A DNA stretch of 64,000 nt from Lachnospiraceae bacterium (GTDB lineage Bacteria; Bacillota; Clostridia; Lachnospirales; Lachnospiraceae): positions 1 to 64,000 of the forward strand of contig JAJQEO010000046.1 of NCBI GenBank assembly GCA_021201665.1, written 5' to 3'. Shown here one piece after another: positions 1-10,494 of this stretch (its first letter is position 1; the number at the start of each line of letters is the position of its first letter). The position numbers were made by a program, and so were the translations under genes. The notes beneath the pieces were generated by a model that ran no database searches, was not told where the DNA came from, and worked only from the letters and a program-made list of their open reading frames with translations.

Positions 1-242
1 CCTCCAACATAATTCAAGGCTTTTTTCTATCTTTTTTATTTTCATTATATCCTCAACGTCACAAAAAATCAATGTTTTCTTGACTTCATTTTTCTCTCGT
101 TTTATTTTTTGTCCTCTATTTCACGACATTATAGTCTGACAAACCATATTTTATCCTGCAATTGCTCCATCAAACACCCGATATTCCTTATGTAATATTT
201 TACTGTGAATAGTAACGATTTGTTTACGATATTGAGAAGGTA
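1..242. other. AT-rich stretch at the window edge, no gene seen
   Basis: This stretch is strongly AT-rich and holds no convincing coding frame, hairpin terminator or repeat. It lies downstream of the pflB fragment on the minus strand and contains no continuation of that gene, so the rest of pflB is absent here rather than displaced by a short gap. Confidence 0.5.
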
Positions 243-812
243 CTAAAAAATTATTGATATTTGTCTCAGGCAAACACGATCGGAATTACTATATTGATAC
301 TTCACCGCCGCAAACCCTTCTTGCCAGGTATGGCGGGTTTTTTTCATCTCCGGCGTATAAATGTCAAACACGCCCTGATTGTGGGTCTTATGATATTTTG
401 TAAAAACCTCATGAAGCTTTTCATTTGGCTCATAACCATACATCCGGCAGGCCTGCTCTGCCATCTTAATGCCGCCGTAAGGCATAAATGCCCGTTTCAG
501 CGGCTTGTCCGTCTGCAGGCCGACCACCTGCTCCAGATCCTTTTTATCCTCATCAATGTACGCCGCGCCATAAGCAGTAATCCCGGAGACCACCTCCGTC
601 TCCATATCCAGGACACCGCCCTTCGCGCGTTCCTCTTTCTGCAGCTCCTGCAGCTTTCCCCAAAGTTCCTCTGTTGCCTCCGTAGGTCCCTGCAGGAATG
701 ACTCATCACCATCATATGGTGTGTAATTGTTCTGGATGAAATCCCGCACATTCACTTCATACCGCCAGTGTATTCCCTGAAAACCTGCCCACTGCTCCCT
801 GTCCTTTACCAT
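243..812 (-). pseudogene. pflB: Truncated pyruvate formate-lyase (N-terminal fragment)
   Basis: Residues 1 to about 160 match the start of pyruvate formate-lyase, which cleaves pyruvate plus CoA to acetyl-CoA and formate in anaerobes. Visible family segments are EVNVRDFIQNNYTPYDGD, VVGLQTDKPLKRA, PYGGIKM and KTHNQGVFDIYTPEM. Right after KKTRHT the family sequence stops and about 27 unrelated residues follow to a stop. The usual enzyme is about 750 residues; the catalytic cysteines and the C-terminal glycyl-radical site are absent. A GAGG ribosome site precedes the ATG, so the stub may still be translated, but it cannot be an active enzyme. A short inverted AAACCC/GGGTTT pair lies near the break point. 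It sits 48 bases downstream of the redox operon and may be read through from it. Confidence 0.85.
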
Positions 813-860
813 GAAAATCCTCAGCGCAGCCCGCTTTATTATTGTGCCAGCCCTCCAGGA

Positions 861-1304
861 TCAGGCCGGGTCTTCATCACTTCCCCCACCATTAGTGTCA
901 GCCAGAAGCTCCACGGCCTGCTCATAGTATGCGGTCTGAATTTCGGCTTTAGATTTTCCCCGTTTACAGCGTGGAGCGATCAAGGGGCACTTACGGCTGC
1001 AGGCACCGCAGATCAGTTTATCCAAAAAATCCTCCAGCGAAAGGACACTTCCGTCCGCCTGAGAAATTTCTGCGGCAATGACCGCTATGGTTTCCTCGGA
1101 TTCCTTTCCCAGAATGACCAGACGGGGAGCTTCCGCCTCTTCTGTATTCATGGCCTGTATATGACTGCTTATGGCAGCCCCGCCGCTGTAGGTCACGCAG
1201 ACCACCAGTGTAATTCCCGCGCACAGACAGATTACTTTCTTCCTGATATTGCTTTCTTTCTGTTCTTCTGATATGAGCTCAGAATATTTTTCCAACTCAT
1301 CCAT
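861..1304 (-). CDS. Small membrane-anchored protein with a four-cysteine cluster
   Basis: A 147-residue protein of unknown function. The start is set at MDELEK, which follows a clear GGAGG site, rather than an upstream in-frame ATG. A membrane segment spans about residues 24-45. Near the C-terminus four cysteines (99, 102, 106, 113) form CGACSRKCPLIAPRC, spaced like an iron-sulfur or metal ligand set. It is the last gene of the operon that starts at 8366, 16 bases after the CcdA-like gene. By inference it could accept or pass electrons for that membrane carrier. The motif is visible; bound metal and role are inferred. Confidence 0.7.
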   Translation of the reverse strand: MDELEKYSELISEEQKESNIRKKVICLCAGITLVVCVTYSGGAAISSHIQAMNTEEAEAPRLVILGKESEETIAVIAAEISQADGSVLSLEDFLDKLICGACSRKCPLIAPRCKRGKSKAEIQTAYYEQAVELLADTNGGGSDEDPA

Positions 1305-1320
1305 GAATTTCGAACCTCCT

Positions 1321-2040
1321 TCAACGCATATAAACAGATATCGTATAAATTGTAACCGCCAGAAGCAGGACATAACAGCCCAGCCGGAACCGGCCAAGAT
1401 ACTGTGCCGCGTCCTGGCGCAGTTTTCCGGCCAGTAATCTGGAGATCACAAACCAAAACAGCACCGGGGAGAGAAATCCCACAGTGGAAAAGACCATTCC
1501 GGAAACAAGTGCCAGAGGAACAGAAAGTGTAATACACTGGCCAAGCACCAGCAAAAGAGGGGCGCATGGCGTCGCGCCGCACGCCAGGCCGCTGACCAGA
1601 AGAGCCAGCGAGCCGGATTCTTTCTGAACGCCCCAAATCCTGCCGCAGTCTCCGCGGCAGTTTTCACCGCAACCCCCGCTGCAGTCTCCTCTGTATTCTC
1701 TGCCGCAGCGGCGCTGTCTGCCGGTCATGCTTCGTGCCCCTTCCGCGATCATGATGATACTGACCGCCAGGACAAAAAGCTGTGCGGAAATATAGATATT
1801 GACTCCAAGAGCCCTGCCGGTGCTGTCCATGATAACCTGTCCCAGGGATGCGGAAATTCCGCACAGGAGCATGGTCATGCCGGCTTTGCCCGCCAGAAAG
1901 CACATACATGGCTGAAGGATGCGTTCATGCGTGATCACGTAGGCCGCAAGAAAGGCGGAACCGGCCGACGCCCCGCAAAGACTGCACGTACTGCCGGCAG
2001 ACATGGCGGAGAGCATAACCTGAAAAAGCTGACTAAGCAT
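1321..2040 (-). CDS. CcdA/DsbD-like (TauE/SafE-type) membrane electron carrier
   Basis: A 239-residue polytopic membrane protein. Hydrophobic segments are arranged as in CcdA/DsbD-type proteins, which move reducing equivalents across the membrane through paired cysteines. Candidate redox cysteines are C19 and C22 (STCSLCGAS) and C154 and C159 (GLACGATPCAPLL). Residues about 106-143 form a soluble loop rich in Cys, Gly and Arg that is not normal for the family and looks like a low-complexity insertion. The start overlaps the end of the activator gene by 8 bases and has its own GGAGG, suggesting translational coupling. Context suggests it links cytoplasmic low-potential electrons to something outside the membrane; a transport role is the alternative. 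Confidence 0.7.
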   Translation of the reverse strand: MLSQLFQVMLSAMSAGSTCSLCGASAGSAFLAAYVITHERILQPCMCFLAGKAGMTMLLCGISASLGQVIMDSTGRALGVNIYISAQLFVLAVSIIMIAEGARSMTGRQRRCGREYRGDCSGGCGENCRGDCGRIWGVQKESGSLALLVSGLACGATPCAPLLLVLGQCITLSVPLALVSGMVFSTVGFLSPVLFWFVISRLLAGKLRQDAAQYLGRFRLGCYVLLLAVTIYTISVYMR

Positions 2041-2827
2041 GATCCCGCTCCCTCCCGATTACCGCCGCTCCGATTGCACCGTTAAACTGCGGATGGGAAG
2101 CCACAAAAACATCCCGCATCAGTTCTTCCTCAAAAGCCGAACGAATGCCGATATTAAGGGCTCCGCCGCCGGTCATCAGAATATCGCCCTGTTTTTCATT
2201 GCGGCGGATCATCTTAATGATTCGCTTCGCGATCGACATATGGACGCCGGCCAGAATATCGCTGCGGTCATATTTCCGGGCGATCAGCGAAATGACCTCA
2301 GATTGCGCAAACACGACGCAGGTGCTGTTGATATCGCAGGGCGCCTTGCTCTGCATGGCTATCTCTCCGACCTGATCAATCGTTGTGTCCAGAATCTGCG
2401 CGATAACCTCCATGAATTTTCCTGTACCGGCGGCACATTTATCATTCATTGTGAAATTCTTTACCGTATAATTTTCATCCAGATATATAATTTTGCTGTC
2501 CTGGCCGCCGATATCAATGATCAGGCCCGGACGATAGTTTTTCGGAGCCGTCAGCCGGACGCCATAGGCGTGGGCAGTGATCTCTGAAATGTCGTCGTCC
2601 GCTGTGTCCATAATCTTGCGGCTGTAGCCAGTCGCGATGGTGCATGCAATCTCATCGCGGCGGATCCCCCGTTCCCTGCACAGTTCCTGTAAAAGGCGTT
2701 CAGCAATGGCGCTGTTGTCGATCCCGGAACCGGAAGCTCTGGTTCCCACCACCTGATCTCCCTGGATCAGAGCTGTCTTAATATAAGTAGAGCCGCCATC
2801 AATACCCGCGTAATAATTATCTGTCAT
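2033..2827 (-). CDS. 2-hydroxyacyl-CoA dehydratase activator (BadF/HgdC-type ASKHA ATPase)
   Basis: A 264-residue ATP-driven electron donor of the HgdC/BcrAD/DCCP-reductase family. These homodimers hold one [4Fe-4S] cluster and use ATP to push a low-potential electron into HgdB-type partners. Visible ATPase motifs are DGGST (residues 10-14) and DIGGQDSK (105-112). The two cluster cysteines are C131 in MNDKCAAGTG and C170 in INSTCVVFAQSE. The length is normal for the family. The gene overlaps the 3' end of the HgdB-type gene by 11 bases, and an AAGGAG site precedes the start, so the pair is probably co-translated. The natural substrate of this system cannot be told from sequence. Confidence 0.93.
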   Translation of the reverse strand: MTDNYYAGIDGGSTYIKTALIQGDQVVGTRASGSGIDNSAIAERLLQELCRERGIRRDEIACTIATGYSRKIMDTADDDISEITAHAYGVRLTAPKNYRPGLIIDIGGQDSKIIYLDENYTVKNFTMNDKCAAGTGKFMEVIAQILDTTIDQVGEIAMQSKAPCDINSTCVVFAQSEVISLIARKYDRSDILAGVHMSIAKRIIKMIRRNEKQGDILMTGGGALNIGIRSAFEEELMRDVFVASHPQFNGAIGAAVIGRERDHA

Positions 2828-4124
2828 GGATATTTCCCACTCCTTTTCCTTTCAGATCCTTCAGCTTGATCAGTTCAATAAATGCCTCGATCCGAATCCG
2901 TATCTGCTCCACATCTTCCTCATTGTAATCGCTTTCTACGCGTATAACAGGAATATCTTCCTTTTCCAGCGCCTTCTCCAGCAGAGGGAACTCATAATCA
3001 TAGACCAGACACCCCCGCAGGACATGGTATACAACGCCCTGGATTTTATGCCTGTGAACCATATGCAGGACACGATCAATCCGCTGCCTGTTTTCAGAAA
3101 AAACCGGGCAGGAGCAGGCCCGTATATAGCGGTTTGCCAGTGCGCGAAGCAGACCGTCGAAGCTCATGTCCGTCGGGACAACCGGGTCATACAGGAACCG
3201 CTCGCCCATGCAGGTCTCGTCCGCCGCCAGACTGCCGCCCATCTGTTCTATAAGAAGCGGCAGCTTCAGGTTCGGAAAAATGATCGGAGAACCGGTCAGC
3301 ATGATCCGCGGTCGGTTCGCCTTAGTAATATATTCCTCTTTTGCCTGACGCCCGGATAGTTCCTCATTCAGTGAGCGGAGACAGTCCGTCCACTGTTCCT
3401 GAGGCATATAGGAAGCGGCATTCATCATAGCCATGATATGGGTGCCGCGAATCAATGCCCTCTCCTGATTTTTAAATTCCAGAAAACGGGACATCTCCCT
3501 CTGAGAAAATCCCGTCAGCCAGATGCTGTCACGGAGTCGTTTCCACGTCACACTCTGACCAGTGACGGCCTCCATGGTCCGGATCAGCCTCTTATATTCC
3601 GTCACACTGTCTGAGATTGCCGTGTCATCTGTGCGGTTCATCGGTAAATTCATTACATGAACATCGCTCTCGCGGCTTAAAAGATCCGCTATTTTTTTCT
3701 TGCAGTCACAGGCAGCAGGTACCACCATCAGCCGGCAGTCTTCATAAATGGGCATCGTCTTCATTTCCCGAAATCCGGCAACTGCTTTTACAAGAGGGCA
3801 GGCATCCCGCGGCGTACGGTCATCGCCGATCTGGAATGCGGTGTAGTGCCCGCTGCACAGCTTAACGGGCATCGCACCCGCTGCAAAGATCAATTCCTGA
3901 GGAACCATCATACAGTAAGTGCCGATACAGGGAACATCAGCCGCAACTCCTTCGTGATCCACATAGATACGGCGAAGAGTGTTCAAAAACGGTTCCATCG
4001 CTTCCGGAAGCCCCGGCAGGGATTCTATTTCCCGAAGGTAGCGTGCCGCGGTATGAGACGACCTGCGGAGGAAACGTTCTTCCTGCCGCATACGGACAGC
4101 CTGCTCCTGTTCCGGTGTAATCAT
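2817..4124 (-). CDS. HgdB/BcrC-type 2-hydroxyacyl-CoA dehydratase-family subunit
   Basis: A 435-residue member of the family that includes 2-hydroxyacyl-CoA dehydratase, benzoyl-CoA reductase and double-cubane cluster protein. All receive electrons from the ASKHA activator encoded next. Family features are GTYCMMVPQELIFAAGA with C66 and C71, further cysteines at C90 and C109, a later SPIIFPNLKLPLL strand and the C-terminal ESDYNEEDVEQIRIRIEAF helix. Several cysteines suitable as cluster ligands are present. A GGAGG site sets the start. A second, divergent paralogue lies two genes upstream, so the complex may be heteromeric. No CoA-ester pathway genes are nearby, which argues against an amino-acid fermentation role. 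Confidence 0.9.
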   Translation of the reverse strand: MITPEQEQAVRMRQEERFLRRSSHTAARYLREIESLPGLPEAMEPFLNTLRRIYVDHEGVAADVPCIGTYCMMVPQELIFAAGAMPVKLCSGHYTAFQIGDDRTPRDACPLVKAVAGFREMKTMPIYEDCRLMVVPAACDCKKKIADLLSRESDVHVMNLPMNRTDDTAISDSVTEYKRLIRTMEAVTGQSVTWKRLRDSIWLTGFSQREMSRFLEFKNQERALIRGTHIMAMMNAASYMPQEQWTDCLRSLNEELSGRQAKEEYITKANRPRIMLTGSPIIFPNLKLPLLIEQMGGSLAADETCMGERFLYDPVVPTDMSFDGLLRALANRYIRACSCPVFSENRQRIDRVLHMVHRHKIQGVVYHVLRGCLVYDYEFPLLEKALEKEDIPVIRVESDYNEEDVEQIRIRIEAFIELIKLKDLKGKGVGNIHDR

Positions 4125-4135
4125 GTCTTCTCCTC

Positions 4136-5962
4136 CTATATGTCCCGCATCGGGTTTTGATGCGGGACGTAGGCTGCGCCATCGCCGCCAGGCGATTTCT
4201 TATGCGCGGCTCTCCTCTTTATGTCCCGCACTTTTTGTTTTTTATAGCGGAGCATGAATTTATCCCGGGATGAGACATAAACCGGCCGCCCGAAAACCGT
4301 GATGGAAAGCGCATCATCCTCAGGACAGTATCGGACACATTCTCCGCAGAATATACAGTCCCAGTCCGTAACCTTTGTCTTTTCCCGTTCCGTATAGATT
4401 GTTTTAATTCCCATCGGGCACGCCTCGTAGCAGGCCCCGCAGCCGGTGCAGGCTTCGCAGTTCTTTTTCAGCTGAACCGGAGATATTTTGTGTGTGATTC
4501 CGATCAGAAAACCCAACGGACAAATGGTGCACCAGAAACGGCGTTTGAAAAAGCTCCCGATCATGACGCCCACCATGACAAATGCCCCCGCGTACAGGCT
4601 GACCTTGAAGCCGCTAAAAGCAGGTGAGAGTGTCTGAACAGGACAGAAATCGCAAAATTTCCCACCGGCAAAGCACAGACTCAGCATCAGGATCACAAAC
4701 GTCCATTTTATCAGCTTCAGGCCGTCATAAATCTTTTCGTTCATTGCAATGCCGTCTGCCCTCAGCCCCAGACGGACCTGATGGATCACATCCTGTAAAA
4801 GACCCATCGGGCACAGAAAGCCGCAGATCAGCCGGCCGAGGACGACCATAGACGCCAGCATGGAGACAAGCCAGGTCAGTATTTCTCCCAGCGAGAGTCC
4901 GAACAGCAGATCCAGATTTGCCAGATAATAGCAGCCTCCGCTGATGAACTGATTTTCATTATAAAGGCCGCAGGCAAAGACTGGCAGGGCAATCCCGTCA
5001 AACCAGACGCCAAAAACATACGCGCCGTAAAAAATGATCAGCCAGGCAATGATCATGCATAGCCACCGTACAAACATAAACAGAGAAAATGGATTTCCCG
5101 TACGGCCGGAACCGCACCGCCGCTGCCGCACATAATCTCTGCCATAGGCTTTCTGTTCCAGATACCGGCGCGCGGCCATGCACAGAAGAATGCCGATCAC
5201 GGAAACCGCAAGGATCCAAAACAGAGGCATCAAAGCAGACAGGTGCCGGAGGGTAAACAGGGTATTCTGCTCCGCCTTATAATTCAGAATATAAAAATCA
5301 ATATTATTTTCAGAATAAGCTACTGTAACGCCTTTCCATGCATCCTTTGCACCCAGCGCCGTCAGCACCCCGTTTTCATCTGTGATCTGCTCTGTAACAC
5401 TGCCGTCTGCCGCCGTCACCCGCACCGTCGTATCGGCCAGAGGAGCATCGTTATAATAAATCTGCACTTCCCGGCGCCGGTTCAGTACCACATCCAGCGC
5501 AAAAGCATCCGCACTGTAAGTCTCTCCCTCCGCATTGTTGCCAAGAAGGATTTCCATATCCGTCCGGGCAGCCAGATGCAGCCTGTCCCGCTGCCCATCA
5601 CCGTTATAATCGCCGTACTGCATTTTGGAGACCGCGAGAAAACTGCCTGTATAATCCTCTGTCAGAAAGGACATATGTTCCTCGCTCATGACAGCAATGC
5701 CGGAGGTCGTCAGTCCGTAAAGCTGGATATCGCTCTGGTCAATGCCGGCCTCAAGAACTAATGTCAGATCCACATTATCGTAGGTAAAATACAGACCCCA
5801 TTCTCCCTCTTCCGTTTCCTCTATGCCCAACGTATATTCGGTAACATCATCGGCAAATTCATAAAAAGGAAATTTCCAGGAGTACCGGGCAAACAGCCCC
5901 AATAAAACGCATAGAAGCAACAGTCTCCAGTGCTTTAAAATCGTACTTATAATTGATCTCAT
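4136..5962 (-). CDS. NosR/NapH-like membrane polyferredoxin
   Basis: A 608-residue membrane protein. After an N-terminal anchor (about residues 8-27) comes an extracytoplasmic domain to about residue 230, then several membrane helices. Cys-Pro motifs (GFLCPMG, CDFCPVQ, CTICPLG), as in NosR/NapH/RnfB-type proteins, lie in the membrane part. Two C-terminal [4Fe-4S] motifs follow at about 500-515 (CEACTGCGACYEACP) and 535-546 (CIFCGECVRYCP). Such proteins pass electrons between the membrane and soluble partners. The last roughly 24 residues are encoded by a two-hairpin DNA element at 4141-4213, so the C-terminus was probably extended by it. No strong ribosome site is visible before the ATG. Confidence 0.85.
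   Translation of the reverse strand: MRSIISTILKHWRLLLLCVLLGLFARYSWKFPFYEFADDVTEYTLGIEETEEGEWGLYFTYDNVDLTLVLEAGIDQSDIQLYGLTTSGIAVMSEEHMSFLTEDYTGSFLAVSKMQYGDYNGDGQRDRLHLAARTDMEILLGNNAEGETYSADAFALDVVLNRRREVQIYYNDAPLADTTVRVTAADGSVTEQITDENGVLTALGAKDAWKGVTVAYSENNIDFYILNYKAEQNTLFTLRHLSALMPLFWILAVSVIGILLCMAARRYLEQKAYGRDYVRQRRCGSGRTGNPFSLFMFVRWLCMIIAWLIIFYGAYVFGVWFDGIALPVFACGLYNENQFISGGCYYLANLDLLFGLSLGEILTWLVSMLASMVVLGRLICGFLCPMGLLQDVIHQVRLGLRADGIAMNEKIYDGLKLIKWTFVILMLSLCFAGGKFCDFCPVQTLSPAFSGFKVSLYAGAFVMVGVMIGSFFKRRFWCTICPLGFLIGITHKISPVQLKKNCEACTGCGACYEACPMGIKTIYTEREKTKVTDWDCIFCGECVRYCPEDDALSITVFGRPVYVSSRDKFMLRYKKQKVRDIKRRAAHKKSPGGDGAAYVPHQNPMRDI
4141..4213. repeat. Class I two-hairpin element (copy 1), at the 3' end of the NosR-like gene
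   Basis: The first hairpin has perfect 10-bp arms (GTCCCGCATC at 4142-4151, GATGCGGGAC at 4159-4168) around a 7-base loop. It is followed by GTAGGC and a second nested hairpin, ATCGCC/GGCGAT inside GCGC pairs. The same layout recurs at 31363, 34321, 38219 and 58753 with different but self-complementary arms. It supplies the final codons of the upstream gene. Confidence 0.7.
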
Positions 5963-5999
5963 AATAATGTCTCGTGGTAACTGTGAAGGTATTTAGCAG

Positions 6000-7208
6000 T
6001 TACATCTCGTGAATACTCTGCTTCAGAAGCTCGGAGAATGCCTCCAGCCGGATGCGAAGCTGTTCTATGTCATTGTCATGATAGTCCGTTTCCAGGCGCA
6101 GCACCGGTATATTTCGGTGAGTAAAAAGCTGTTCCAGTCTGTCAGCCTCAAAATCATATTCGATCTGCCCCTTGAGAATATGGAGGATCACACCCCGGAC
6201 TTTGCCGCCATCCAACTGCCGCAGCGCCTGATCATACAAATCCCGGTTCCGGACGAACGCTCCGGAGCTTTCATGTTTAAAAGAAACCGCCGCCAGCTGC
6301 TGCAGGGCTTCCTGCCGGTTGAAAATGGAAACATCCCCCGTCCACTCCTGCGAGCAGGTTTTTCCGGTAACCCAGCTGCAGCAGTTTACAATCTCCAGAC
6401 CACAGGCGTCCAGCAGCTGCGGAACCTTAAAGTTCGGAAACAGGATCGGGGAGCCAATCACCAGAACACCGGGGTATTCCCCCGCGGAAGGAAGCTGCGT
6501 TTCCCGGAGGCTGTCCCTCAGGATGGTAATCCTTTCCGTCCACTCTTCCAGATCCTCCGCATAAAACCAGGTGAGATTTAAAAAATGCCTCACCATCCCG
6601 TTTAAACGGATCGCCGGATCATTGCACAATTCAAAAAAGGCATCCTTTGCCCGTGATGTTTTCTGAACAGCCCGCAGAATCCCTCTCGTGGTTCCCGGCA
6701 GCAGCCACCGCAGGGATAACTTTTCCATAATCTCATCCAGCTGCCCGGCGATTGAAAAGGAAAGACTGGCCGAAGAAGCGCCCGGCATAATATACAGCGG
6801 ATAAACCGTCCACCCATCCTCTTCCAGAAGATAAGAAAGCTTTCGCTGGCTGTCCCCTGCTATGGGAATGATTACCGGCGGCTTTCTCTCTGTCTTTTCC
6901 TGATATGTTTTTATGTATCCGAGCGCAGACCGGGAAACGGCATCCGCGTCACGGGGAACCAGACTGTCCGCACATTCACTGATGGCCAGTCCGCCGCCGA
7001 CTACCCAATGCGGCCGAATGTGATAAGCCATCAAAAGCTCTTCCGGAAAAGCGGAACCCAGGATCAGTACTTCCCGTCCGCAGGCCTGACCTTCAAAGCA
7101 AAAATAGTTCTTTGCCTGCAAAAAGAAATAATCAAGCGCTCCGGGAACGCCGCAGCATCCCCGGAGTATTTCAAAACCCTTTTCTAATTCTGACTCAACA
7201 TTCTGCAT
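6000..7208 (-). CDS. Divergent HgdB/BcrC-type subunit
   Basis: A 402-residue paralogue of the 2817-4124 gene. The shared signature is strongest in the second half (GSPILFPNFKVPQLLDACG and ETDYHDNDIEQLRIRLEAF). The N-terminal block is altered: the typical GTYC..PQE region reads LILGSAFPEELLMAYHI and lacks the cysteine. Cysteines remain at CCGVPG, in CFEGQACG, in CCSW and in GKTC. It may be a partner subunit with fewer cluster ligands rather than a second catalytic unit. A short GGGGCT/AGCCCC hairpin overlaps the stop of the binding-protein gene just before this start, and no strong ribosome site is seen, so expression may depend on coupling. Confidence 0.82.
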   Translation of the reverse strand: MQNVESELEKGFEILRGCCGVPGALDYFFLQAKNYFCFEGQACGREVLILGSAFPEELLMAYHIRPHWVVGGGLAISECADSLVPRDADAVSRSALGYIKTYQEKTERKPPVIIPIAGDSQRKLSYLLEEDGWTVYPLYIMPGASSASLSFSIAGQLDEIMEKLSLRWLLPGTTRGILRAVQKTSRAKDAFFELCNDPAIRLNGMVRHFLNLTWFYAEDLEEWTERITILRDSLRETQLPSAGEYPGVLVIGSPILFPNFKVPQLLDACGLEIVNCCSWVTGKTCSQEWTGDVSIFNRQEALQQLAAVSFKHESSGAFVRNRDLYDQALRQLDGGKVRGVILHILKGQIEYDFEADRLEQLFTHRNIPVLRLETDYHDNDIEQLRIRLEAFSELLKQSIHEM

Positions 7209-7217
7209 GGCAGGGGC

Positions 7218-8366
7218 TCACTCAAGCCCCAGCAGGTCTATGATCTGCTCGAGCTGCATAATTGTGGAGGTAAGTCCTCCATCTGCACTGTACCAGAGCG
7301 CCTCATCCATATAAATGATATTTCCGTTCTGATAAAGCTCCGTATCCGCAAGCTCCGTTGATTCCACTACCTCCTGCGCAGATACAGCTTCAGCCATGTT
7401 TTCACCGGCGTCCTTATCAAAAACAAAGACGTAGGTTGGCGCCGCATCTGTGATCGTCTGGACAACTTCGGCATTCTGCGCCGTCCTGTCCTCGGTTTCC
7501 TCCTCTTCAATGGAGACATCATCCAGTCCGTCGCCGCCGCCGCGAATTTCTCCATCCGCCTCAGCATCTTCAATGGAGGCGTCATCCTGTCCGTCACCGC
7601 CGCCGCGGACTTCGCCATCCGCCTCAGCATCTTCAGCGATGCCTCCTTCGTCAGCGCTTTCTTCTCGTCCGCCATCGCCGCCCCGGCCCTCTTCCTCATT
7701 GTCCTCTTCTTCATAAGCGGAGATAAACCCAAGTGCCCCGCTAAGCAATGCATTGGAATTGTTCGCTCCAAGAGAGAGACCTCCGTCTTCGCATGTGACA
7801 CAGATAAAAGAAACCTCATTTTCCGCGGTATAGCTCTGCACGGTATCAATCATTTCCTGTATCTGATCCAGATACTCCTGTGCAGTCTCCTCCCCGCCAA
7901 ACAAGGTCGTGATCGCATTCACCCTCTTTTCCAGGGCAGCCATATATTCCTCGGAGGAATCCACGTCACCGGCAGCAAAATAGATGGCCGGCGCAACCGC
8001 ATCTACAACATCAACACTCTTTGTCTGACGGAAACCGGCCAGAATCAGATCCGGATTGCACTCAGCAAGCGCGTCCTGATCCCAGTCCTTAAATCCGCCC
8101 AGATCCACATAAAAGTCTCCCGCATAATCCGAAAGGTAATCCGGCATGGCCAGTCCGCTTGTAACAGCCACAACATAGTCTCCAAAGCCGAGGGTATCGA
8201 GGATGTCCAGCATTCCCAGATCATAAACAGCGATCGCATTTACCTCAGACTCGATCACAGCAGTCCCCCAGTCGCTTTCTATCTCAATGGGGTAAGCGGA
8301 CTCCGCTCCGGCTTCCAGAGAAAGCGCCATTGAAAGTGCCAGTAAAGTTGCAAATGTCTTTTTCAT
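7218..8366 (-). CDS. ABC-type metal chelate/cofactor substrate-binding protein
   Basis: A 382-residue secreted binding protein of the FepB/BtuF (TroA-fold) type that captures iron chelates, haem or corrinoids outside the cell. It has a Sec signal peptide (residues 1-22) without a lipobox cysteine, and family segments such as NAIAVYDLGMLDILDTLG and NPDLILAGFRQ. Residues about 217-292 are an acidic Gly/Glu/Asp insertion holding two copies of a 21-residue unit (63 bp), foreign to the family. No permease or ATPase follows; redox genes do. It is the first gene of an operon with a perfect-spacing promoter and a DtxR-type operator. Ligand identity is unknown; an iron-containing compound is inferred from the operator. 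Confidence 0.82.
   Translation of the reverse strand: MKKTFATLLALSMALSLEAGAESAYPIEIESDWGTAVIESEVNAIAVYDLGMLDILDTLGFGDYVVAVTSGLAMPDYLSDYAGDFYVDLGGFKDWDQDALAECNPDLILAGFRQTKSVDVVDAVAPAIYFAAGDVDSSEEYMAALEKRVNAITTLFGGEETAQEYLDQIQEMIDTVQSYTAENEVSFICVTCEDGGLSLGANNSNALLSGALGFISAYEEEDNEEEGRGGDGGREESADEGGIAEDAEADGEVRGGGDGQDDASIEDAEADGEIRGGGDGLDDVSIEEEETEDRTAQNAEVVQTITDAAPTYVFVFDKDAGENMAEAVSAQEVVESTELADTELYQNGNIIYMDEALWYSADGGLTSTIMQLEQIIDLLGLE
7510..7640. repeat. Tandem 63-bp repeat inside the binding-protein gene
   Basis: About two imperfect copies of a 63-bp unit encode the acidic Gly-rich insertion of the binding protein. The copies differ by scattered substitutions and keep the frame. Confidence 0.6.
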
Positions 8367-8392
8367 ATTTAACCTCTTTCTTAATATGATAT

Positions 8393-8445
8393 GGTTAGTG
8401 ATTACTAACTTTGATTAGTATAATCTATCTGGCGGTCATTGTCAA
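8393..8445 (-). promoter_or_regulatory. Promoter and DtxR/IdeR-type operator of the redox operon
   Basis: On the minus strand a TTGACA -35 (8440-8445), a 17-bp spacer and a TATACT -10 (8417-8422) precede the binding-protein gene. TTAG-N6-CTAA-N6-TTAG at 8395-8418 covers the -10 edge and the start-site region. The TTAG-N6-CTAA core is that of DtxR/IdeR operators, so repression by a divalent-metal (Fe or Mn) sensor is predicted. The same spacing recurs at 11177-11200. Confidence 0.75.
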
Positions 8446-8535
8446 GACCTTTTGCAATTTCACGATTCCCTGTCTTTTCGAAAGTTCACGGTGTCTGGCA
8501 CCATGAATTCCATCTTCGCGCAGATAAAATAGAAT

Positions 8536-8665
8536 CCCGCTTTGCGGGATTCTCGCGCTGCCGCGCGTCTGCGCAAGCAGACCGTTTCCTTTAGCGCGGC
8601 ATGTGCATCCCCGGAGGGTTTTTGTCCAATAGGGAAGTTCGAGGAACTTTCCTATTGGACAAAAA
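8536..8665. repeat. Hairpin cluster including a 22-bp stem
   Basis: Three hairpins follow one another. AATCCCGC/GCGGGATT lies near 8536. A nested GCCGCGC...GCGCGGC structure encloses GTCTGC-GCAA-GCAGAC. A long palindrome at 8619-8665 has 22-bp arms with one mismatch around a GAG loop, flanked by T5 and A5. They lie between the redox operon promoter and the terminator of the next gene. The long stem could terminate transcription in either direction. Confidence 0.6.
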
Positions 8666-8691
8666 ATTCCCCGCAGTGAATCTGCGGGGAA
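8661..8691 (-). terminator. Rho-independent terminator of the 8752-10494 gene
   Basis: On the minus strand the perfect 10-bp stem TTCCCCGCAG/CTGCGGGGAA with a 5-base loop is followed directly by a T-run. It lies about 60 bases after the stop codon. Confidence 0.85.
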
Positions 8692-8751
8692 GTAGACCAG
8701 AGGAGATAAAAATCCTGCCATTCGCCCTGAAACAGGATACCTCTTTGCCTG

Positions 8752-10494
8752 TTACATTTCTGAAATATACTCTTCCTTCTCGCACACAACCTTGCACCTC
8801 TTCTTAAAGCAGGCGATGCCATATTTGTAAATCGTGTGATATCCTTCATGCTTCAGCTCGCTCGTATAATGCATCCTCTCAATCTGTGCCATCGCATCCT
8901 TACATTCTGCGTCAAATCGGGCATTCCGTGCATATTTAAACTCAATGATAATGCCGATATCTTCTTCTTCAATTTTTACCATGACATCACTATAACCATC
9001 GCCGGCATCTGCATTGGTTTTTGAATCCCATCCTTCTATATTTACCAAGATCCCGATCATCTCGCCATGATAAAGGATTTCTTTTTTGTCATTCTGGACA
9101 ACTGAATCTCTGACGGTAATAGAGTCATAAAGGTAGGAAGTAAATAATTTCTCCACCTTAGCAGCGTCTCCCGATTTTATAGCTTCCCCAAACTCTGTGA
9201 GGCGGCTGGTATTTGCCTTGACCACTTTTTGAAACATTTCTGTAATCTGGTCAGTAAATATTTCACGTATCTCCCGGTTGGGAATTGCCAACTGATATTT
9301 TTTTCCTTCTGAATCCCCCCGCTGTGTCAAATAGCCTGTCATAAACAGAACACTCCAGATATTTTCTATCTCATCGTACAGGTGATTATATGTCAGATCC
9401 TCCCGTATCACTTTTTCTACAGTTTCGCCGGCAACCAATGCTTCGATCTCCCTCTTTGTGTTTGCCGTCTTATTCGATTTCTCAATAAAGTGCCGGACAG
9501 CATCATTCCCGCTCGTATTAGACCAATATTCCTTTGGATAAGCAGTTGGGTCACCAGATAATTCATAGCAGTAGTTGATAACATCCCAGGGGCAGTAGAC
9601 ATCCACTTTCCCAAAACGGTAGCCGTCATACCAATCCCTGACAGCATCATGCTTATCCATCAGGTCATAGTAACCCAGCATCTCTTTCACTTCATAATCT
9701 GTAAAACCAAAATATTCATCAAAACGGACAGTAGTAATAGAAAGTATATTTGGATTATTTAACCCTGTGAAAATGCTTTCCTTTGCCACACGGAGGCACC
9801 CTGTCAAAACAGCAAAATACAGGCTCTGGTTTGATTTCAACGCAGCATCTAACATTTTTCGGATCAGATCGACCATTTCATCATAATATTTTCGCTCATT
9901 TGCTTTTGCCAGCGGCACATCATACTCATCGATCAAAATAATTACTTTACGTCCATAGTGTTTTTCCAGAAGCTGGGATAAAGTTTGCAGGCTACTGGTA
10001 ATTGTGGCTTCAGACATAACAAAAGCACTTTTTAGAGTTTCATCCACTCTTATCAGTTGCCCATACCTTTTTCTATCAGTCTCTGTAAGCTTTTCGCTTG
10101 TAGCCAGAAAAGGAAATCTTAACGCTTCATTTGCAATAATGGTACATAATTCATTTTCTGAAAGCTCATAATTGTTCCCATGGACAGTTTTAAAGCTAAT
10201 GGAAATCACGGGAAATTGCCCCATGTATTTTTCGCAGAGCTGTGTCTCTTTGGAAATCTCAAGTCCCTCAAATAATGATTTATCGCATCCAATCTCCAGG
10301 AATGCTTTCAGCATACTCATATTCAGGGATTTCCCAAAGCGTCGTGGGCGCGTAAAAAGATTTACTTCCCCCCACGCATTCAGTAAATCTCGAATCATTG
10401 CCGTTTTATCGACATAATAAAAGCCTTCTGTCCGGATCTTGCAAAAATCATCAATCCCTATCGGAAGCTTCTTTTTCATACCATTATCAGCCAT
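8752..10494 (-). CDS. AAA-ATPase/PD-(D/E)XK nuclease-like protein (DUF1703 family)
   Basis: A 580-residue cytoplasmic protein of a family common and multi-copy in gut Clostridia; its biological role is not established. The N-terminal AAA-like domain has a modified P-loop (FTRPRRFGKSLNMS, about residues 47-60) and a Walker B (VIILIDEYD). The C-terminus has PD-(D/E)XK residues: D in GDGYSDVMV and E-x-K in IIIEFKYAR. Compared with the copies at 31-38 kb this one is intact and lacks a hairpin insertion in the nuclease domain. An AAGGAG site precedes the ATG, and a possible 57-codon ORF overlaps its start. A strong terminator follows. Confidence 0.88.
   Translation of the reverse strand: MADNGMKKKLPIGIDDFCKIRTEGFYYVDKTAMIRDLLNAWGEVNLFTRPRRFGKSLNMSMLKAFLEIGCDKSLFEGLEISKETQLCEKYMGQFPVISISFKTVHGNNYELSENELCTIIANEALRFPFLATSEKLTETDRKRYGQLIRVDETLKSAFVMSEATITSSLQTLSQLLEKHYGRKVIILIDEYDVPLAKANERKYYDEMVDLIRKMLDAALKSNQSLYFAVLTGCLRVAKESIFTGLNNPNILSITTVRFDEYFGFTDYEVKEMLGYYDLMDKHDAVRDWYDGYRFGKVDVYCPWDVINYCYELSGDPTAYPKEYWSNTSGNDAVRHFIEKSNKTANTKREIEALVAGETVEKVIREDLTYNHLYDEIENIWSVLFMTGYLTQRGDSEGKKYQLAIPNREIREIFTDQITEMFQKVVKANTSRLTEFGEAIKSGDAAKVEKLFTSYLYDSITVRDSVVQNDKKEILYHGEMIGILVNIEGWDSKTNADAGDGYSDVMVKIEEEDIGIIIEFKYARNARFDAECKDAMAQIERMHYTSELKHEGYHTIYKYGIACFKKRCKVVCEKEEYISEM

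Follow-up and report, generated by a model that had tools for sequence, protein, structure and literature searches.

What is the role of a gene block in which two HgdB-fold proteins and their ATP-dependent activator stand beside a membrane polyferredoxin and further membrane proteins? The question is raised by a 64,000-nucleotide stretch of DNA from a Lachnospiraceae bacterium (GenBank assembly GCA_021201665.1, contig JAJQEO010000046.1), here called the window, which starts at base 1 of a 101-kb contig (C53) in an assembly of 4.7 Mb. Seven genes on its minus strand, lettered G, F, E, D, C, B and A in transcription order, occupy positions 861-8445 together with a promoter-like site and a palindrome ahead of G, and apparently constitute one transcription unit. 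They are co-directional and partly overlapping, as a preliminary description of this DNA had stated; D and C share 11 bp, C and B share 8 bp, and the remaining intergenic gaps measure 9-37 bp. The gene make-up named in that description was borne out by Pfam, TIGR and NF family matches of G, F, E, D and C. The analysis presented here suggests that the locus belongs to a double-cubane system which is coupled to the membrane, has a cluster-free partner, recurs in a patchy way and is apparently undescribed. A literature search limited to openly licensed PMC papers found no description of the gene block, which agrees with the earlier statement that no characterised system is known to have this make-up, absence from print being unproven.

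The evidence for such a system lies foremost in the conservation of its core, F-E-D-C-B. A scan of named genomes was carried out with D, from which the best 80 of 156 confirmed relatives were kept as loci (given L-numbers), these including Acetobacterium species, Ruminococcus albus, Anaeromicropila, Lachnospiraceae, Oscillospiraceae and Coriobacteriaceae/Atopobiaceae; six further loci were found with F. Three rows (L054, L120 and L104) representing the same contigs as L039, L041 and L044 were removed before contigs were counted, leaving 83. The counts of neighbours and of cysteine (Cys) columns dropped only L054 and L120, so that L104 is still counted beside L044, which affects the Cys columns of D, C and B and the D column of the joint D/F alignment; length and score limits excluded short and low-scoring copies from the Cys columns, hence n = 70 to 81. 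D is present in all 83 contigs, C in 81, E in 80, B in 77 and F in 73, and each missing core gene coincides with a contig edge except in L094, which has no B and whose activator reading frame continues into response-regulator-like sequence. Of the 39 contigs in which the core is 2.5 kb or more away from either end, 38 have it complete. The ratio of nonsynonymous to synonymous substitution (dN/dS) was 0.02-0.18 for all seven genes against three relatives, dS against one of these (L049) being near saturation, and this ratio, together with the 38 complete cores, argues that the set is held together beyond chance. The conserved co-occurrence of the HgdB paralogues with NosR-like and CcdA-like genes, for which the preliminary description had suggested a genome search, is thus found elsewhere. 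A search with F of 250 genomes of the same family, the window's own included, gave matches at E < 1e-50 only in that genome and five others, each within the same cluster; in the relative L044 the cluster is cut by the contig end. Two DCCP-like genes stand alone (L132 and L133): their contigs, short at 5.6 and 4.6 kb, carry neither E nor F nor B, which hints weakly that the association is a property of the present subfamily.

At the centre of the core are D (2817-4124), a double-cubane-type reductase (HgdB-like 1), and C (2033-2827), an ATP-dependent activator of the BadF/HgdC type. D matches HGD-D with 296.6 bits and the double_cubane model NF040772 with 318.0 bits, the latter under the curated cut-off of 350, and its best PDB relatives are 7yyl and 6eno, with a profile match of 289 bits. 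Ten Cys of D are conserved in at least 79 of 81 sequences; seven of these positions (C71, C90, C109, C139, C305, C339 and C372, each 81/81) align with cysteines of DCCP. C matches BcrAD_BadFG (PF01869) with 185.4 bits over a cut-off of 31.5 and TIGR00241 with 230 over 125.4, and its candidate cluster cysteines C131, C164 and C170 are found in 72/72 sequences. The biological function of double-cubane proteins is stated to be unknown (PMC11971306).

The second HgdB-type protein, F (6000-7208, HgdB-like 2), matches HGD-D with 104.7 bits and NF040772 with 86.5 bits (cut-off 350). The two divergent HgdB proteins of the preliminary description both match the HGD-D family, but they are not equivalent, as the cluster cysteines have been lost in F. 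Among 70 sequences no alignment column of F holds 30% Cys or more, single F proteins having 2 to 12 scattered Cys, and G51, D89, S315 and Q348 are fixed replacements. In the joint alignment with D (n = 70), C71 is replaced by Gly in 69, C109 by Asp in 70, C141 by Ser in 62, C337 by Asp in 58, C339 by Ser in 68 and C372 by Gln in 70; the positions of C90, C139 and C305 vary (C139 is still Cys in 11/70) and C130 aligns to a gap; the F of the window has Glu at 313, where Asp is the usual residue. The Asp and Gln replacements recur in F' at the divergent loci L128 and L129 and did not vary across 27 sequences, and the F' of L149 has, by eye, Glu where F has that Gln. A polar set is also conserved in F, comprising D89, D119, R122, K123, Q348, E350 and D352. 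F forms a single clade (support 1.0) on a long branch, with a branching that resembles that of D by eye, and the fixed substitutes together with this clade indicate an old, conserved and re-purposed protein. The HgdB family carries [8Fe-9S] in each DCCP subunit, [8Fe-9S] and [4Fe-4S] in BzdNO, and [4Fe-5S] and [4Fe-4S] in Had (PMC11971306); F would be a further step of this cluster-loss series, in which the whole cluster of one subunit has gone.

The membrane side of the core begins with E (4136-5962), a NapH/NosR-type polyferredoxin with an ectodomain. It matches Fer4_5 with 43.7 bits over 22, has further 4Fe-4S domain matches, and reaches 73.2 bits with the NapH family TIGR02163, under the cut-off of 213.05; 16 Cys, including those of the CxxxCP motif, are invariant in 73/73 sequences. 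The AlphaFold2 model of E has a mean pLDDT of 84.3, and the fold of the ectodomain (residues about 52-236; 5255-5809) matches DUF4198/Zcp metal-binding proteins. The window copies of B (1321-2040), a DsbD_2/CcdA-like membrane electron carrier with extra Cys, and of A (861-1304, the ATG at 1304 being the best start by eye), a small and probably membrane-anchored protein, gave no Pfam match. Three B orthologues tested against DsbD_2 (cut-off 24.9) scored 32.9 (L040), 36.3 (L053) and 20.5 (L091), and the A orthologue of L091 matches DUF6550 with 30.6 bits (cut-off 27). The C-terminal CxxCx3Cx6C and Tyr-rich end of A are nearly invariant, with the four tail Cys present in 41/41 aligned sequences, and the rest of the protein is variable.

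Around the core, neighbouring families were listed where they occurred in at least four of 84 contigs and were named by eye: A (42 contigs), a histidine kinase (20), a response regulator (16) and an acetyltransferase (14) recur, a LysR regulator is found in 17 contigs in 19 copies, 10 of them upstream and divergent, and flavodoxin/aldo-keto reductase genes adjoin in 18. Pfam confirmed one example each of the kinase, LysR and Crp neighbours, and the regulator type near the copies (LysR, two-component or Crp-type) varies by lineage. No CoA-ester enzyme, CoA-transferase or other evident substrate gene was seen by eye among these recurrent neighbours. The divergent loci L128, L129 and L148 consist of a Crp-type gene, F', a gene whose small product contains two hydrophobic stretches, a short E', D' and C', with no B; L149-L151 have the same order plus B. 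At L128 (3171-6882) a hybrid-cluster-protein-like gene, a cupin, a ferredoxin-like gene and the Crp gene adjoin F'-E'-D'-C' by eye, which raises a possible link with nitrosative stress.

In the window the core is preceded by G (7218-8366), a secreted substrate-binding protein (SBP) of the Peripla_BP_2 family (PF01497, 39.5 bits over a cut-off of 27.5), SstD-like and with an acidic insert. G is present in five of the 83 contigs plus the window, is limited to the window's own lineage, and is the first gene of the operon in all six loci, standing 9 bp before F in five and directly before F in L049. No lipobox Cys is present in the window copy, and by eye the L049 orthologue has one; G would appear to have lost the lipobox Cys that L049 keeps.

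Upstream of G, the promoter-like site TTGACA-17-TATACT (8417-8445, minus strand) is the best of 11 sigma-70-like sites in window 1-8800, with 11/12 matches, the number of such sites not being enriched (11 against a shuffle mean of 9.2). Just downstream of it lies the 16-bp palindrome GTTAGTAATCACTAAC (8394-8409), an operator probably of the DtxR/Fe type. GTTAGTN4ACTAAC with at most one mismatch occurs at eight sites in the genome, one of which (C121:89714-89729, one mismatch) lies on the -10 of a promoter-like TTGACG-17-TATACT (promoter by eye) before feoA. Here Pfam FeoA is matched twice (50.7 and 79.8 bits), followed by feoB (by eye), and a divergent DtxR-family gene adjoins (Fe_dep_repr_C 51.3, Fe_dep_repress 36.3 bits). 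A hand calculation puts the probability of any of eight random sites falling in a given 100 bp of 4.7 Mb at about 2e-4, for a feo promoter that was noticed post hoc. This near-copy supports, for the window's lineage, the DtxR/IdeR-type operator named in the preliminary description, and its location speaks against a MarR-type site. In the G-bearing loci L045-L048 the exact palindrome covers the -10 hexamer and is followed by a second, degenerate palindrome, and L049 has the palindrome with one mismatch (all by eye). An exact site at C112:1642 has an ABC half-transporter gene on one side and a methyltransferase gene on the other, and the remaining operator-like sites have no evident iron gene nearby by eye. 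Two contigs of the same genome, C26 (L157) and C118 (L158), carry several kb of apparently identical genes in opposite orientation with one operator-like site each, so that two of the eight sites are one, through duplication or assembly overlap. On L158 (279-2137 and 3441-4874) hybrid-cluster-protein-like, ferredoxin-like, Crp-type and BadF/HgdC-like genes occur together, with an operator-like site upstream of that Crp gene (by eye).

How these parts might work together can be put forward only tentatively, and our preferred reading is that the operon encodes a membrane-tethered, ATP-driven reductase which in this organism would reduce a ferric chelate, Fe2+ then entering via FeoB. C would use ATP to drive electrons taken from ferredoxin or flavodoxin onto the putative double cubane of D, reaching potentials lower than NADH or ferredoxin can provide, and D would form a heterodimer with F as its cluster-free docking or substrate half. 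E would then carry electrons via two ferredoxin clusters to an inner-face four-Cys set and on to an outer-face set, where B, and A when present, would hold the outer thiols or clusters in the reduced state and relay electrons further. The window's lineage would have recruited the unit for iron: the iron-type operator would turn it on together with feoAB, the secreted SstD-like G would present the ferric chelate with the E ectodomain beside it, and the low-potential electrons would reduce Fe(III) in chelates, for instance catecholates, that bind it too tightly for NAD(P)H to do so. As the released Fe2+ would enter through the co-regulated FeoB, no ABC permease would be needed. Other lineages probably use this wire for different acceptors outside the cytoplasm. 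What makes the iron model attractive is that ferric siderophores, at -350 to -750 mV, lie beyond NAD(P)H (PMC9727729) while the clusters of BzdNO need potentials below -600 mV for the second and third electrons (PMC11971306). Reductive release of iron from a chelate, a functional idea of the preliminary description, remains a plausible inference.

A number of observations weigh against this reading, and it should be considered with caution. A occurs in 44 and the long E ectodomain in 34 of the 83 contigs, leaving many members without them, and the ectodomain has no conserved His (none in columns at 80% or more among 32 ectodomains). The pairing of D with F and the partnership of E with D are suggested by synteny, the link between B and the outer Cys set by one probable loss event, and the direction of electron flow is a proposal. 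Against the SstD model for ferric-catecholamine binding (NF047879) G scored 80.6 bits, far under the cut-off of 450. FecCD genes lie on the window's contig at 73.5-75.7 kb, outside the window, and the SBP adjoining them (C53:71381-72325) shows 37% identity to G over 140 residues and 42% over 74; with a looser palindrome, ATTAGGCTAATCTAAC, about 240 bp from the start of the FecCD match, this importer may be iron-regulated too and may serve G. The earlier statement that no ABC permease is present thus holds for the operon and the window, but not for the contig. A second FecCD operon, whose neighbours resemble a haem uptake system by eye, was observed on another contig of the same genome (C108, L164, 913-7251).

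The operator likewise calls for caution. The eight 16-mer sites with at most one mismatch compare with four in a reversed control, and the shorter exact core gave three against seven, so that site counts alone are not clearly above chance. The exact TTAG...CTAA palindrome was found in 0 of 68 upstream-of-F regions of loci without G, the scan covering the stretch before F, which is not the first gene everywhere (e.g., L042, L043 and L111), and Fur-like boxes showed no excess there (1/68 at 11 of 14, against 2.8% in a simple letter-shuffle control). Iron control of all copies was for these reasons rejected as a general rule. Since the palindrome is found at the six G-bearing loci and in none of these other regions, it seems instead that the window's lineage placed the module under iron control and added the binding protein; both elements, treated as parts of the system in the preliminary description, stand for that lineage and do not belong to the conserved core.

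Electrons could also flow inwards, with E and B feeding membrane electrons to C, and with D and F reducing a soluble cytoplasmic substrate, be it a small molecule like those that DCCP reduces in vitro or an organic compound to which F binds. DCCP reduces acetylene, hydrazine and azide (PMC11971306), which would suit this direction. The polar set of F would suit it as well, together with the three divergent loci that have neither B nor the outer Cys set; the cytoplasm is also where HgdB-fold enzymes act, and NapH/NosR-type proteins are known electron feeders. Inward flow nevertheless seems unlikely, for B and A point to the outer face in most members, the listed recurrent neighbours hold no CoA-ester enzyme or evident substrate gene, and the window transcript is shared with a secreted binding protein and a metal-protein-like ectodomain. 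If the flow is outward, it might serve maintenance and not iron, the system reducing or rebuilding Cys or metal sites outside the cytoplasm when redox or electrophile stress arises, with A as client or carrier. The invariant tail of A fits this, and so do the LysR, two-component or Crp-type genes adjoining many copies and the flavodoxin/aldo-keto reductase neighbours; yet A was not found in 39/83 contigs, some of them cut short, and the iron-type operator and chelate-type binding protein of the window copy leave such a role quite unlikely.

A further possibility concerns G itself, which might be a mere duplicate of the SBP of the FecCD importer some 65 kb away, low iron inducing the core to another end, for example the sparing or repair of iron enzymes. 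The resemblance of the two binding proteins and the looser palindrome near the FecCD start would be explained in this way, but G heads the operon wherever it occurs and the FecCD cluster has no operator with one mismatch or fewer, and we regard the duplicate as similarly improbable. That the block is simply a 2-hydroxyacyl-CoA dehydratase or benzoyl-CoA reductase of the ordinary kind, whose neighbours are unrelated, was rejected as very improbable indeed: the protein families are the same, but Had and BzdNO have clusters in both subunits (PMC11971306) and F is devoid of conserved Cys, CoA genes are absent from the listed recurrent neighbours, and the block is conserved with its membrane genes.

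Should the membrane-tethered reductase be the right reading, its significance would extend beyond this locus. The strongest form of the claim, a new bioenergetic module in which an ATP-driven, nitrogenase-like reductase of low potential is wired through the membrane with a cluster-free HgdB partner and acts as the first ATP-powered ferric-siderophore reductase, is rather doubtful. If true, iron would be stripped from chelates too stable for NAD(P)H, F would be a new end point of the cluster-loss series, and there would be an answer as to how ferric chelates near -750 mV are reduced without breaking the chelator. The block ties a double-cubane protein to a membrane wire and, in one lineage, to an iron regulon, so that double-cubane function becomes accessible to experiment in anaerobes that are in culture, among them Acetobacterium and Ruminococcus albus, and a cluster-free HgdB member helps to separate docking, substrate binding and electron transfer in these enzymes.

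Further features flank the operon. At 243-812 (minus strand), near the contig start, lies a fragment of pyruvate formate-lyase whose match is confined to roughly the first 150 of 744 positions, either a broken gene or an assembly edge. Upstream of the promoter, two strong stem-loops with T tails (8531-8691) are probably terminators of the neighbouring unit, and at 8752-10494 (minus strand) is a gene which we take to resemble the AAA-ATPase/nuclease-like proteins often repeated in Clostridia.

Each part of the system has known counterparts from which it departs. E has in common with NapH/NosR-type ferredoxins the Fer4_5 repeats, the CxxxCP/CxxCP motifs and two 4Fe-4S sets, but differs in an extra outer four-Cys set, a DUF4198-like ectodomain and the lack of a match to a flavin mononucleotide domain, whilst B, compared with CcdA/DsbD_2 and RnfA, has extra CxxCC and loop CxxxC cysteines. 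The periplasmic siderophore reduction of the FsrB type with FeoAB in Bradyrhizobium would share the logic of reducing outside and importing Fe2+ (PMC10760861); the start of its abstract mentions no ATP-driven double-cubane module. BzdNO and HadBC resemble D-F in being two paralogous HgdB-fold subunits with an activator, but their clusters are found in both subunits (PMC11971306), whereas F has no conserved Cys and the recurrent neighbours include no CoA-ester genes. There is also a likeness to DCCP (6eno/7yyl) and its activator, with which D and C share the seven aligned Cys and the BadF-type activator; DCCP is, however, a homodimer with one [8Fe-9S] per subunit (PMC11971306), whereas here the double-cubane-type protein is accompanied by a cluster-free paralogue, F, and by the membrane partners E and B.

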